Source of the DNA: an uncultured Pelagibacteraceae bacterium
Lineage (GTDB): Bacteria; Pseudomonadota; Alphaproteobacteria; Pelagibacterales; Pelagibacteraceae
Length of the DNA stretch: 64,000 nt
Reading direction: 5' to 3'
Assembly: GCA_902541315.1 (NCBI GenBank)
Contig: CACBQF010000004.1
Span: 25,223 to 89,222, forward strand
The first letter of the stretch is position 1. The number at the start of each line of letters is the position of its first letter. This document shows positions 30,459-61,438 of this stretch, in pieces. The notes beneath the pieces were generated by a model that ran no database searches, was not told the origin of the DNA, and saw only the letters and a program-made list of their open reading frames with translations. The translations under genes and the position numbers were made by a program.

Positions 30459-30490
30459 TTAAGGCCACTTATTATTATAAGTGGCCTTAA
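30459..30490 (-). terminator. Intercistronic hairpin between dctP-like and dctQ-like genes
   Basis: TTAAGGCCACTTA-TTATTA-TAAGTGGCCTTAA perfect 13-bp stem; minus-strand 3' side continues AATTTTATG. Confidence 0.8.
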
Positions 30491-39985: not shown

Positions 39986-41200
39986 GTGAGCAAAATAAAG
40001 GTAAAAAACCCAGTTGTAGAGTTAGATGGTGATGAAATGACCAGAATAATCTGGGAATTTATCAAAAATAAATTAATTCTTCCCTACATAGATTTAGGCA
40101 TTGATTATTACGATCTCGGTATGAAAAGCAGGGACAATTCAGATGATCAAATAACTATTGATGCAGCAAATGCAATTAAAAAAGTTGGTGTAGGAATTAA
40201 GTGTGCAACAATCACTCCTGATGAAGCTCGCGTAGAAGAATTCAAATTAAAAAAAATGTGGAGATCTCCAAATGGTACCATTAGAAATATTATTGGAGGC
40301 ACAGTATTCAGAGAGCCAATTATTTGTTCGAATATTCCTAAACTTGTTCCATCTTGGACAGATCCCGTAATTATTGGAAGACACGCTTTTGGCGACCAAT
40401 ATAGAGCTACAGATTTTAAAGTGCCTGGTAAAGGTAAAATGGAAGTAAAATGGACTTCTGAAGATGGCAAAGATGAAATCAAATATGAAGTATTTAATTT
40501 TACAGGTCCGGGAGTTGCTCTTTCAATGTATAATTTAGATAAATCGATTGAAGATTTTGCTAGATCTTGTTTCAGCTATGGATTGATAAAAAAATGGCCA
40601 GTATATTTATCAACTAAGAATACAATCCTAAAAAAGTATGATGGAAGATTTAAGGACATTTTTGAGGAAGTATTTAATAAGGAATTTAAGAAACAATTTG
40701 ATGATGCTAAAATTACATACGAACACAGATTAATCGATGACATGGTTGCATGTGCCATGAAATGGAGTGGTAAATATATTTGGGCATGTAAGAACTACGA
40801 TGGTGATGTGCAGTCTGATACAATGGCCCAGGGCTATGGTTCTTTAGGTCTAATGACTAGCACATTATTAACTCCAGATGGTAAAATAATGGAGGCTGAA
40901 GCAGCTCATGGTACTGTTACTAGACATTATCGTATGCATCAACAAGGTAAAGAAACATCCACAAACCCTATCGCATCTATATTTGCTTGGACTAGAGGCT
41001 TAGCTCATCGGGGTAAATTAGATGGAAATGACGAACTGGTAAAATTTGCAAATACTATAGAAGAAGTTTGTATCCAATGTGTGGAAAGTGGATCAATGAC
41101 AAAAGACCTTGCAATACTGGTTGGACCTTCAAGTAAATATTTAACTACTAATCAGTTCTTGGATGTAATTGATAGTAATTTGAAAAAAAGATTAAATTAA
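39986..41200 (+). CDS. icd: NADP-dependent isocitrate dehydrogenase (eukaryote-like type)
   Basis: [52 protein letters not shown] start. Confidence 0.96.
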
Positions 41201-43858
41201 AGACTTTATCTTTTCAAAAGCTTCATCAATTTTATTTTGGTCCTGACCACCAGCTTGAGCAAAGTCTTTTCGTCCACCTCCACCTTTGCCACCAATAGTC
41301 TCAGAACCTAATTTAGCAAATTTAACCGCATCATATTTATCAATTAATTTTTCTGTTATACCTACAGCCAGTCCAACTTTATCCTCATTAGTAGCAAATA
41401 CAATTATAATACCATCACCTAAATCTTTTTTTCCATTATCAACAAGTTTTCTTAAATCTTTAGGTGGTAGATCAATAACTTTTTGAAATCTTACTTTTAT
41501 ATCTTTAATTTTCTGATCATTAACAATATTTTTTGTTTTGTCTTTTAGAACTGAGTTCACATTGAGTTGTTCAAGTTGTCTTGTAAGATTTTTAATAAGT
41601 TCCTTAAGATCTTTACTTTCTATATTTGGCTTACCGCCAAGTTTTATAATTTGAGATGATAATTCTTTAATTGTATCTTCATCTTTCTGAATTGAAAGTG
41701 TTGATGCTTTTTCTTTATTTTTAATATATTCATCTAATTGTTTATCTCTTAATGCTTCTACTCTTCTAACACCTGCTGCTATAGAGGACTGACTTACGGT
41801 TTTAAATTTTCCTATATCGCCGGTGTTTCTAACGTGGGTTCCACCGCATAATTCTGTTGAAAAATATGCTTCTTTTTCTTTGCCCATAGATACCACCCTT
41901 ACTTCCTCACCATACTTTTCTCCAAAAAATGCTAGAGCACCTTTTTCAATAGCTGCTTTGGGTGTCATAATTCTAGTCGTTACTTCAGTATTATTTTTCA
42001 CATATTCATTTACTAATTTATCAATAGTTTCTAGCTCTTCATTTGTGATTGGTTTCATATGACTAAAATCAAATCTCAAACGATCTGGTGCAACAAGTGA
42101 ACCTTTTTGCATAACATGTTTTCCAAGTGTTCGTCTTAAAGACTCATGAAGAAGATGTGTTGCTGAATGATAAGCTTTTAGATTTGCTCTTCTTTCAATA
42201 TCAATTTTTAATTCAACAGTATCACCTACTTTTATTGAGCCTGTTTTTAACGAACCATAATGAACAAATAAATTACCAAGCTTCTTCTGTGTATCCTCAA
42301 CCTCAAAAACCGAGTTTCCTGAAACTATTGTGCCTTTGTCTCCAAGTTGTCCACCGGACTCACCGTAAAAAGGGGTTTGATTTGTTATTATCATTCCTTC
42401 TTCACCAGTGGATAATGATTTCACTTCGCTATTTTCCTTTATCAAATTTAATATAACTCCCTCTGATTGATTAGACTCGTAACCTAAAAATTCAGTTGGA
42501 CCAATTTTATCTTTGATTGAAAACCAAATTGCTTCTTCTGAACTGTCACCTGAACCTTTCCAATTTTTTTTAGCAAGTTCTTTACTATTTTTCATTAGTT
42601 GATCAAATTTTTTATGATCAACCGTTAATGATTTATTCTTTAAAATATCTTCAGTCAGATCTAATGGGAAACCATAAGTATCATATAATTTGAACGCCAC
42701 ATCTCCTGGTAAGACTTTATCTATTTTTGAAATTTCATCATTTAAAATTTTAATTCCTCTATCAAGTAAAACTAAAAATTTTTCCTCCTCCATTTTTAAT
42801 GTTTCTCGAATTAATGACTCTGATCTTTCTAATTCTGGATAATTTCCTGACATTTCATTTTTTAAAGCCTCAAAAATTTTGAAAAATATTGGTTCTTTAG
42901 ATCCCAGTAAATGAGAGTGTCTCATACCTCTTCTCATTATTCTTCTAAGAACATATCCACGACCTTCATTTGAGGGCAAAACACCTTCAGCTAAAAGAAA
43001 TGAGCTTGCTCTTAAGTGATCAGCAATTACTCTAAAACTTGATATATTTTTATCTTCTTGTTTGACTTTTGTTACTTCAGATATTGAACTTATTAATTTC
43101 TTAAAATGATCAGTTTGATAATTATCGTGTGTTCCTTGTAAAAGAGCTGCAATTCTTTCTAATCCCATTCCTGTATCGACAGATGGTTTTGGTAAATCTA
43201 TTCTTTTATCTTTTGAGACTTGCTCATACTGCATGAAGACTAAGTTCCAAATTTCAATAAAACGATCACCATCTTGATCTTTAGTTCCTGGCAATCCTCC
43301 TTTTAAATGATCACCATGGTCGTAAAATATTTCTGAACAAGGACCACATGGCCCAGTTTCACCCATTGACCAGAAGTTATCTGACGTTGCAATTCTAATT
43401 ATTTTATCATCACTAAAACCTGCAATTTTCTTCCAAAAATTAAAAGCCTCGTCATCCTCATGAAAAACAGTTACATAAAGCCTATTTTTATCAAGGCCAA
43501 AGTCTTTAGTTATCAAATTCCACGCTAGTTCTATTCCTCTTTCTTTGAAATAATCTCCAAAAGAAAAATTTCCTAGCATTTCAAAAAAAGTATGGTGTCT
43601 TGGGGTATAACCAACATTTTCTAAATCATTATGTTTACCACCTGCCCTTACGCATTTTTGAGAAGTGGTTGCTCTTTGATAATCTCTTTTCTCTAAACCA
43701 GTAAATACATTTTTAAATTGTACCATTCCAGAATTAGCAAACATTAGTGTTGGGTCATTATTTGGCACTAAATTACTGGACTCAACAATCTTATGATCAT
43801 TCTTTTCAAAGTATTTTAAGAACGTGCTTCTTATTTCATTTAATGATTTGTCTGCCAT
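41192..43858 (-). CDS. alaS: Alanyl-tRNA synthetase
   Basis: [45 protein letters not shown]-type [34 protein letters not shown]. Confidence 0.98.
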
Positions 43859-43910
43859 ATTTTTAAGATACAGCTTTTTTGTTTTATGTCTAGTTAGGGA
43901 TGAAGGGGGA

Positions 43911-43933
43911 AAGGCGCTTATTATAAGCGCCTT
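43911..43933 (-). terminator. Hairpin downstream of recA
   Basis: AAGGCGCTTATTATAAGCGCCTT, 11-bp inverted repeat around 1 nt (practically 9-bp stem/5-nt loop), between the recA stop and the alaS start. Confidence 0.7.
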
Positions 43934-43958
43934 TATAATTTAAAGATGACCTTTAATT

Positions 43959-58472: not shown

Positions 58473-58492
58473 TGATATGAATATAGGTGTAA

Positions 58493-58532
58493 AAAAAAAT
58501 AGGGCAAGTATGTAAAAACATACTCGCCCTAT
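58493..58532 (-). terminator. Strong hairpin plus U-tract between proteorhodopsin and ferredoxin
   Basis: Minus strand TAGGGCGAGTATGT-TTTT-ACATACTTGCCCTA followed by a run of T (TTTTTTTT). Confidence 0.88.
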
Positions 58533-58554: not shown

Positions 58555-59331
58555 TTATCTTGCTCTTGCGCCAGCTCCAGAACTCATTGCAGCAGCCCAG
58601 ATTACTAGACCAAATGCAATTTTGTTAATGAAGTCAGCTAAGTTGTAAACTACGTTTAATGTGTCTGCATCTACTCCACCAGTTAAGTAACCAAATACAT
58701 AACCTAATGGATAAATTGCCCAACCTACGGTTACAATCATTCTCATTGCACCGAACGCAGTTACAAGAGCTTTGTTTCCGCTCTTAGCAGCAGCTTTACC
58801 TGCTTCACCTGAGAATACTTCATAAAGAATGTATACCCAACCTGCCATACCGATAATGAAACCAAGTGTAGCGTTGATGTATCCAGCTTCTCCTAAGTAT
58901 CCACCGATTAACATTACTAATGAACCGATTAACAATCTCCAGAACATTCCAGAGTTTGCTTTTCTTACAGCTACTAGAATTAAATAAAATTCTACCATCT
59001 GTAATGGCACAGTAATTAACCAGTCAATATATCTATATACTGTTGGTGAGTCACCTGTAGCAACCCATACTTCTCTCATATACATGTAGTGAATGAAAGC
59101 AATACCAGTTACTAGACCAGCAACAGTTACTGATGTTTTCCACGCAGGGTTAACAGTACCTCTCTCCATGAAGAAGAAAGCTGTAGCCGCTAACATACCC
59201 ATTGAAATTATCCAAAAAGATATTCCAACAAAGTCATCCTGAGCTAACATCGTTGCGTCTGCTGCATTAGCAATTCCTGTTAAACCTGTTAGGGCAACAG
59301 CTGCTAGAGCAAACAGTTTAAGTTTTTTCAT
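58555..59331 (-). CDS. Proteorhodopsin, blue-type (Gln at spectral-tuning position)
   Basis: RYIDWLITVPLQMVEFYLILVA (Asp acceptor/Glu donor, PLQ tuning residue), retinal Lys in LADFINKIAFGLVIW; signal peptide. Confidence 0.98.
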   Translation of the reverse strand: MKKLKLFALAAVALTGLTGIANAADATMLAQDDFVGISFWIISMGMLAATAFFFMERGTVNPAWKTSVTVAGLVTGIAFIHYMYMREVWVATGDSPTVYRYIDWLITVPLQMVEFYLILVAVRKANSGMFWRLLIGSLVMLIGGYLGEAGYINATLGFIIGMAGWVYILYEVFSGEAGKAAAKSGNKALVTAFGAMRMIVTVGWAIYPLGYVFGYLTGGVDADTLNVVYNLADFINKIAFGLVIWAAAMSSGAGARAR

Positions 59332-59363
59332 AAAAAACTCCCTCTTTAGTTAGTTTTTACTTA

Positions 59364-59399
59364 TTAGTTTATATAAACTAAGCTTAGGCTTCCCTAAGC
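59364..59399 (-). promoter_or_regulatory. Two abutting inverted repeats in the proteorhodopsin leader/promoter
   Basis: TTAGTTTATATAAACTAA (perfect 18-bp palindrome, 59364-59381) directly followed by GCTTAGG-CTTC-CCTAAGC (59382-59399). Confidence 0.7.
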
Positions 59400-59545
59400 A
59401 AAGATTTGGGTTAAATAGCAAATAAAAACAGATTATTGAAGACTAAAGTGTCATTTATTTACGTTGATTTTACTGACTTTTTGAAATTAAATACAATTTA
59501 TAATTTAATAATCTAAAAAAAAGGCACAATCGAATCAAAAATCAA

Positions 59546-61438
59546 ATGCCCAAGAAATTTAATGAAATATACCAAGAATCTATAAATAATCCTGAAAACT
59601 TTTGGAGACAAGCATCAGAAAACATCTTCTGGTTTAAGAAACCAACCAAAATTTTAAACAAATCAAATCCTCCTTTCTATAAATGGTACGAAGATGGTGT
59701 CACTAATACGTGTTATAACGCATTGGATTTTCACATTGATCAAGGAAAAGGAAGTAAAACCGCATTAATTTACGACAGTCCTATTACTGAAAATAAAAGC
59801 AAGTTCACTTATGAGGAATTAAGATCAAAAGTATCAAAATTTGCAGGAGCACTTAAAAATCAAGGGGTCAATAAAGGTGATCGGGTAATAATTTATATGC
59901 CCATGATACCTGAGGCTGTTATAGCAATGCTTGCTTGTGCAAGGATTGGAGCCATACACTCAGTGGTTTTTGGTGGATTTGCCTCAAACGAACTTGCAAG
60001 TAGAATTGACGACAGTAAAGCAAAACTTTTAGTAACCGCTTCCTGTGGTTTTGAGCCTGGAAGGACTGTTGAATACAAACCTTTAGTAGATGAAGCAATA
60101 AAACTTGCTAATCACAAAATTAGCAAAATGATTTTGTTCCAAAGAAAAGGTCATGAAGTCAAATTAAATGCTCCTGTAGAGATCAGCTGGGATGAAGCCC
60201 ATGCTAATGCTAAAGACACAGATTGTGTAGAAATGAATTCAAATGAATTTGCTTATATTCTTTACACATCAGGAACTACCGGAACTCCAAAGGGTATCGT
60301 TAGAGATATTGGGGGTCACATCGTTGCTTTAAAATGGACTATGAAAAATATTTATAACATTGATGAGGATGATATTTGGTGGTCAGCAAGTGATATTGGT
60401 TGGATAGTGGGTCACTCATATATTGTCTACGCTCCATTATTTAAAGGATGCACAACTGTGCTGTTTGAGGGTAAACCAGTTGGCACTCCTGATGCTGGGG
60501 CTTTTTGGAAAATTATTTCAGACTATAAAGTTAAATCATTATTCACGGCACCAACAGCTTTTAGAGCAATTAAGAAAGAAGATCCTGAGGGTAAATTTTT
60601 TTCTAAATATGACTTAAGCAAATTCGAAAGTCTTTTTTTAGCTGGTGAGCGTGCTGATCCTGATACAATTAAGTGGGCTGAAAATTTATTAAAAGTCCCA
60701 GTAATAGATCATTGGTGGCAGACTGAAACTAGTTGGGCGATCAGTTCAAATTGTACTGGAATTGAAATGATGGAAACCAAATATGGTTCGGCTTGTAAAG
60801 CAGTACCTGGCTATGATGTAAAAATTATTAAATCAGATCAAACTTTAGCTAAGCCAAATGAAATGGGAGATATAGTTGTAAAGCTCCCATTGCCCCCAGG
60901 TACATTCCCAACTCTTTGGAATGCTGATCAAAGATATAAAGAAAACTATATGTCAAATTATGATGGTTATTATCAAACTTATGATGCAGGTCATATTGAT
61001 GAAGATGGATATATATGGATCATGTCTAGAACAGATGACATAATTAATGTTGCGGGTCACAGATTGTCAACGGGAGCAATTGAAGAAGTTTTGTCTGAAC
61101 ATCAATCAGTAGCTGAATGTGCTGTTCTTGGAATAGCAGACAAATTAAAAGGACAATTGCCTATTGGCTTAGTTGTTTTAAAAGCAGGCGTTGATAAAAG
61201 TCATGAAGATATCTCAAAAGAGTGCATACAAATGGTCAGAGAGAAAATAGGTCCAGTTGCTGCATTTAAAATTGCTATAGTTATAAAAAGACTTCCTAAA
61301 ACTAGATCAGGTAAAATTTTAAGAGGAACAATTAGAAAGATTGCTGATAGAGAAGAGTATAAAATGCCTCCAACCATTGATGATCCAGCAATTTTAGATG
61401 AGATAAAAGCTGATCTAAAAAGTAATAATATTCTTTAA
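59546..61438 (+). CDS. prpE: Propionyl-CoA/acyl-CoA synthetase (PrpE-like, AMP-forming)
   Basis: YTSGTTGTPKGIVRDIGGH, TASCGFEPGRTVEYKPLVDEAI, PKTRSGKILRGTIRKIAD. Confidence 0.88.
   Translation: MPKKFNEIYQESINNPENFWRQASENIFWFKKPTKILNKSNPPFYKWYEDGVTNTCYNALDFHIDQGKGSKTALIYDSPITENKSKFTYEELRSKVSKFAGALKNQGVNKGDRVIIYMPMIPEAVIAMLACARIGAIHSVVFGGFASNELASRIDDSKAKLLVTASCGFEPGRTVEYKPLVDEAIKLANHKISKMILFQRKGHEVKLNAPVEISWDEAHANAKDTDCVEMNSNEFAYILYTSGTTGTPKGIVRDIGGHIVALKWTMKNIYNIDEDDIWWSASDIGWIVGHSYIVYAPLFKGCTTVLFEGKPVGTPDAGAFWKIISDYKVKSLFTAPTAFRAIKKEDPEGKFFSKYDLSKFESLFLAGERADPDTIKWAENLLKVPVIDHWWQTETSWAISSNCTGIEMMETKYGSACKAVPGYDVKIIKSDQTLAKPNEMGDIVVKLPLPPGTFPTLWNADQRYKENYMSNYDGYYQTYDAGHIDEDGYIWIMSRTDDIINVAGHRLSTGAIEEVLSEHQSVAECAVLGIADKLKGQLPIGLVVLKAGVDKSHEDISKECIQMVREKIGPVAAFKIAIVIKRLPKTRSGKILRGTIRKIADREEYKMPPTIDDPAILDEIKADLKSNNIL

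Follow-up and report, generated by a model that had tools for sequence, protein, structure and literature searches.

The window, a 64-kb stretch of a SAR11 draft assembly from the genus Pelagibacter (1.03 Mb in 35 contigs), carries on its minus strand a proteorhodopsin (PR) gene (58555..59331) whose open reading frame encodes a protein of 258 amino acids with a signal peptide. The acyl-CoA synthetase gene (acs, 59546-61438) is divergent to PR, and a strong intrinsic terminator consisting of a hairpin and a U run (58490..58532, minus strand) closes the PR transcript before the ferredoxin gene. In the leader that serves PR, two inverted repeats abut at 59364-59399 with no spacer, exactly as the original prediction had read them from the DNA: the palindrome TTAGTTTATATAAACTAA (59364-59381) and GCTTAGG-CTTC-CCTAAGC (59382-59399). 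On the mRNA strand the latter comes first and is the 5'-proximal hairpin, P1, which reads GCUUAGG-GAAG-CCUAAGC with GAAG as its loop; the perfect 18-bp palindrome, P2, adjoins it as a second hairpin with the core UAGUUUA-UA-UAAACUA. The pair lies 33-68 nt upstream of the PR start codon (ATG at 59331) on the minus strand and is followed by a nearly invariant Shine-Dalgarno (SD) sequence, GAGGGAG (59338..59344), both of which had been foreseen.

That these repeats are unusual in the surrounding DNA was likewise borne out. No other perfect ungapped palindrome in the 64 kb is as long as the 18-bp one, and just two reach 16 bp. The 74-nt PR leader ranks second in stability among the 62 gene leaders of the window, the first place being taken by the PR terminator, which lies upstream of the ferredoxin gene, and a 97-nt stretch with the repeats has a folding energy of -20.9 kcal/mol, which is z = -2.5 relative to dinucleotide-shuffled sequences. 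A chance origin is excluded because the repeats are conserved in more than 230 distinct relatives. The proposal that a palindrome at the junction, CTAAGCTTAG, allows alternative foldings fared only partly: the palindrome is present in the window, but in many relatives the end of P1 before TAG reads CC, TC or CG and CTAAGCTTAG is missing, so the alternative fold finds no support. Two further long perfect GC-containing hairpins occur at 30459-30490 and 43910-43934, with arms of 14 and 11 bp, the second just upstream of an open reading frame at 41192-43858 (minus strand); both are probably terminators.

Transcription start and distribution of the leader

The start of the PR transcript can be placed from a dRNA-seq study of Red Sea metatranscriptomes, in which reads from the natural community were mapped to Ca. 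Pelagibacter HTCC7211 (PMC5069720). Table 2 of that study lists bacteriorhodopsin PB7211_669 with start 529616, end 530457 and 507 reads at the transcription start site (TSS), the 10th highest count. Where a gene has a mapped TSS, the tabulated 'Start' is evidently that TSS, and is taken as such because the glcB interval in Table 2, minus the 162 nt by which the text places the glcB TSS upstream, equals a whole number of codons, and because, at most of the 25 starts listed for HTCC7211, a -10-like sequence comes first and a message with a short leader or none begins. A covariance model built here matches the genome taken as that of HTCC7211 at 529614-529692, ending at the ATG (529690-529692), and the end of the PR coding sequence in that genome is identical to the end given in Table 2. 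A TSS at 529616 and an ATG at 529690 give a 5' UTR of 74 nt with A as its first base. The HTCC7211 extended -10 element TGTTATTTA ends 8 nt before the TSS and is homologous to the extended -10 element TGCTATTTA of the window (59412..59420, minus strand), which belongs to the conserved block TTTGnTATTTAA. Transferred by alignment from HTCC7211, the predicted TSS in the window is the A at 59405, 74 nt 5' of the ATG, and the alignments leave a short unpaired 5' end, AUCUUU (59400..59405, minus strand; ACUUU in most relatives), ahead of P1. The original prediction had left it to the TSS to decide between an RNA and a DNA element; carried over from HTCC7211, the published start lies upstream of both repeats, and therefore both hairpins are transcribed.

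The HTCC7211 UTR shows the order P1 from +6, P2 adjoining and a third hairpin, P3, around the SD, with the predicted fold .....((((((((....))))))))((((((....))))))......(((((((..((....))..))))))). (-19 kcal/mol, z -3.3). Among the 25 mapped HTCC7211 transcript starts, the first 45 nt of PR are the most structured (z -4.8), and most SAR11 mRNAs have no leader or a short one that lacks structure. At the other end of the gene, a terminator-like structure was found downstream of PR in all 200 loci tested. PR has its own terminator, and therefore its mRNA should be mostly short and monocistronic, with hairpins at both ends. The terminator precedes a ferredoxin-reductase-GST cluster, PR being still expected to be mostly monocistronic. 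A transcription attenuator or terminator leader was considered and rejected: P1 is followed by P2 and then by A-rich RNA, and the U run before the ATG comes after the SD and is not preceded by a GC-rich stem.

PR homologues occur in 157 of the 201 genomes sampled from the genus. The leader is found in Pelagibacter and two sister genera, in one copy per genome and always directly before PR; when the genome of the window was searched with the covariance model, the next-best matches had E-values of 0.16 and above. A search of 385 genomes across the class gave matches in Pelagibacter only and none in the other Alphaproteobacteria sampled, the viral contigs searched did not contain the leader, and three SAR11 genera whose PR is more distant (66-68% identity) have neither the structured leader nor the signal peptide, so that the leader goes together with the form of PR that has a signal peptide. 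Of the Pelagibacter genomes without a leader match, most of those examined have an assembly in which PR is missing too. The neighbours of PR are constant, with acs divergent upstream and ferredoxin downstream. Rfam gave no relevant match at or above the gathering score for the window and four other leader loci, and the sub-threshold matches (L20 leader, on the PR terminator; csRNA; snR82) were dismissed as chance-like. No description of a PR leader, UTR or hairpin was found in the openly searchable literature, subscription papers being outside this scope, and the tandem-hairpin leader of PR is apparently undescribed.

Pairing of P1 and of the Shine-Dalgarno region

Across the Pelagibacteraceae, P1 retains its shape while its sequence varies freely, with double changes at all eight pairs of the model. 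Among 94 distinct model-aligned sequences, 98% of the cells pair, and the number of double-change cells is 195, compared with 40.7 in shuffled controls and at most 59 in slid ones. About 64 branch events on the PR-gene tree replace a P1 pair, on both sides, with a different standard pair; the slid controls yield 1-11 paired double-change events on the same tree. The stem is mostly 7-10 bp long in relatives and longer in the two other genera, its loops are often of the GNRA type (GAAA, GUAA, GCAA, GCGA, GAGA), and arms as divergent as GGCUUAGG/CCUAAGCC, GGUUCUAUU/AAUAGAGCC and GCAGUAAG/CUUACUGC are found, with a gap of 0-2 nt between P1 and P2 in 233 of 238 leaders. RNAalifold missed P1 on a raw MAFFT alignment, in which the arms were misregistered, a fault that the covariance-model alignment put right. 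Covariation in relatives, which had been proposed as a check on the repeats, is massive for this first hairpin. By this comparative evidence P1 is a real RNA stem, which selection has kept independently of its sequence.

Nearer the start codon, the SD is probably enclosed by the hairpin P3, AAAAACU / AGUUUUU (59333..59358, minus strand). Of 105 unique tails, 102 have an SD-enclosing helix of at least 5 bp, and P3 appears in the minimum free energy structure of the measured HTCC7211 UTR. The arms read AAAAACU/AGUUUUU in Pelagibacter and GAAAACU/GGUUUUC in the two other genera; P3 rests mainly on this one compensatory switch from A-U to G-C between genera, and in AT-rich DNA its support is moderate. 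Two other pairings seen in the window ensemble were rejected. A helix between UCUUU of the 5' end and AAAGA at the SD is uncompensated in the AACGAAGAGGG or AAUGAGGG clades with 5' ends of the AUU/CUC type, and a start-codon hairpin, AGUUUUUU-AUG-AAAAAACU, is not a conserved feature, relatives with MSKL, MNKL and MKTI starts being without it.

Competing pairings in the ensembles of the window sequence, together with the wide occurrence of the SD-enclosing helix, would also suit a regulatory switch. The left arm of P2, UAGUUU, would have two possible partners, the right arm of P2 and a downstream AAACUA, the AGUUUU spacer would pair with AAAACU, and a ligand, small RNA or protein would toggle access to the SD. 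Of 105 unique tails, 96 do repeat AAACUAA further downstream, and riboswitches serve other SAR11 genes (PMC2704228). The combination of P1, P2 and P3 nevertheless dominates the measured HTCC7211 UTR, and the leader has neither an Rfam match nor a conserved sequence resembling a ligand pocket; its conserved sequence is limited to the P2 arms and the A-rich SD region, and P1 has none. PR expression in Ca. P. ubique is, moreover, reported to be constitutive, light leaving both transcript and protein unchanged (PMC3090418), so a light switch is unlikely and the light control suggested in the original prediction finds no support. A switch of any of these kinds is considered rather improbable.

The symmetry of P2

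The arms of P2 read TAGTTTA/TAAACTA in 218 of 238 leaders. Of the changes in them, 19 affect the left arm and 1 the right; in 12 of the left-arm cases the second pair is then G-U. The centre is self-complementary in 237 of 239 unique leaders (TA in 101, AATT in 91, TATA in 30, ATAT in 10 and TTAA in 5); one of the two exceptions has an asymmetric centre and the other has lost the palindrome. When the whole collection was scanned with the four centre bases left free, at least 120 P2-like stretches were recovered; among the matches listed, 80 of 80 belong to Pelagibacteraceae, and none of 71 unique sequences has an asymmetric centre. The PR tree requires at least 11 changes of the centre (12 with the outgroup), a count that recombination could inflate. 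A hairpin has no room for both of the two innermost symmetric pairs, and the symmetry at these positions therefore points to either a dyad, made by two RNAs or recognised by a dimeric protein, or a mutational mechanism. A hairpin alone does not account for the self-complementary centre.

If the mechanism were mutational, template switching at inverted repeats during replication would rewrite both arms at once, with little selection on P2. The creation and perfection of hairpins by such switching have been documented (PMC8794818), and intermediates between the self-complementary centres were not seen. The P2 arms, however, are almost frozen across three genera while the flanks and P1 diverge, and therefore selection acts on P2; template switching could account for the origin of the changes but not for the persistence of the element. 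That the symmetry and the compensatory multi-base changes are mainly of mutational origin is very unlikely.

A dyad in DNA would be an operator, with a homodimeric regulator on TAGTTTA...TAAACTA forming a roadblock that represses PR or the divergent acs, and with P1 as a separate RNA hairpin. Perfect dyad symmetry is common to P2 and the operators of homodimeric regulators, and in P2 it survives the changes of the centre on the PR tree, as if both half-sites follow one protein; acs, too, adjoins PR in 198 of 201 tree loci, which are all those with the flank covered. Yet in all 7 genomes searched the PR leader is the only place with an exact P2 site, and near matches stay below the control rate, which gives no regulon. 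The spacing of the half-sites alternates between 2 and 4 bp instead of being fixed, the arm changes are lopsided, and PR is reported to be constitutive (PMC3090418). Unlike such operators, P2 is a single site per genome that lies inside the transcript, at about +26, where it shifts with the length of P1, and it abuts a covarying RNA hairpin. An operator is judged unlikely. The dimeric repressor or activator site offered in the original prediction is improbable at 59382-59399, where the sequence is unconserved; at 59364-59381 it is conceivable, the dyad symmetry being kept up to the centre, although the site occurs in a single copy per genome, inside the transcript and at a varying distance from the TSS.

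More broadly, P2 may act as a perfect dyad through which PR messages pair with each other by a self-complementary stretch of 16-18 nt, or on which a dimeric protein sits in RNA or DNA; this is offered tentatively, as something we doubt more than we believe. The symmetry of P2 is the least explained part of the leader.

A putative protective leader and its parallels

By sequence analysis, the transcription of both repeats, the pairing of P1, the conservation of P2, the exclusive linkage with PR and the terminator are established. The structure of the leader is well supported, and its function we infer. Hairpins at both ends of the mRNA and a constitutive output are best fitted by a 5' protective leader of the ompA kind, and by this analogy the leader is viewed, with modest confidence, as a constitutive module that protects the 5' end, in which P3 possibly tunes translation. 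Transcription would start about 74 nt before the ATG, as measured in HTCC7211 and predicted in the window, and 5-6 unpaired nt would precede P1, with P2 following directly. The two hairpins may stack end to end, and an A-rich stretch and the weak hairpin P3 around the SD would come next. P1 and P2 would hinder the entry of RppH and RNase E and so support a steady PR message, and P3 may set the rate of translation. RppH-like genes are present in all three SAR11 genomes checked and RNase E/G in both complete ones. The double hairpin in the 5' UTR that had been envisaged is thus upheld as to its transcription and the covariation of P1, and of the roles put forward for it, stability fits best.

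Several observations count against this protective role. The 5-6 unpaired nt before P1 are borderline for the ompA type, and exact 5' ends vary by strain; the best-known protective 5' stem-loops, those of the ompA work, are tightly 5'-terminal, and 5-6 unpaired nt exceeds theirs. A plain stabiliser does not explain the invariance of the P2 arms and the self-complementary centre. The RNA-Seq and TSS reads of PR number 265 and 507 (PMC5069720), a ratio that is not raised and shows no extra stability in that dataset.

Protection by 5' stem-loops of the E. coli ompA type, also found in papA, B. subtilis aprE and A. baumannii recA, has been reviewed (PMC3997798, PMC7509114). Like it, the PR leader opens an abundant mRNA (in ompA that of a membrane protein) with stem-loops, continues with unpaired A-rich RNA and a good SD, and has a constitutive mode with no ligand. 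It differs in having two abutting hairpins, of which the second is a perfect palindrome with conserved arms and a centre that stays symmetric, and in its 5-6 unpaired 5' nt; there is no sequence homology, and stabilisation is putative in PR.

Short conserved structured leaders have been described in SAR11 before. The eight motifs reported in Ca. Pelagibacter ubique (Meyer et al. 2009, PMC2704228), namely rpsB, rpsL, ffh, SAM-V, rhtB, pntA, bablM and SAR11_0636, share these properties with the PR leader, and the bablM element, like it, has one invariant and one variable stem in series. None of the motifs lies at PR, and the word 'rhodopsin' is absent from the main text of that paper. A second parallel in SAR11 is the likewise abundant mRNA of yhdW (PB7211_1204), a gene of an amino-acid ABC transporter, where a TSS-proximal hairpin is adjoined by the perfect 18-bp palindrome TTATTTGTTAACAAATAA and followed by A-rich RNA and an SD. 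Its sequences are other than those at PR, and both of its hairpins are conserved in sequence. The layout of hairpin and palindrome is present in 31 of 31 yhdW sequences examined, and among the 25 HTCC7211 starts only yhdW, besides PR, has a layout of this kind. This suggests a leader type rather than an oddity of PR, two cases being few.

SAR11 are the commonest bacteria of the ocean, and their PR, a light-driven proton pump, counts among the sea's most abundant light-harvesting proteins; in the literature searchable here, no element controlling the PR mRNA is described. In a streamlined genome where most messages have a short leader or none, the retention of a 74-nt structured UTR across three genera implies that a step after the start of transcription is important for PR. 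With its symmetric-centre rule, P2 bears an unusual evolutionary signature that can be tested directly, and the leader offers a handle for work on PR expression and for measurements of mRNA lifetime in an organism that is genetically hard to manipulate. If the dyad proposed for P2 is true, it would define, together with the yhdW leader, a SAR11 class in which a hairpin and an abutting perfect palindrome are placed on abundant messages.
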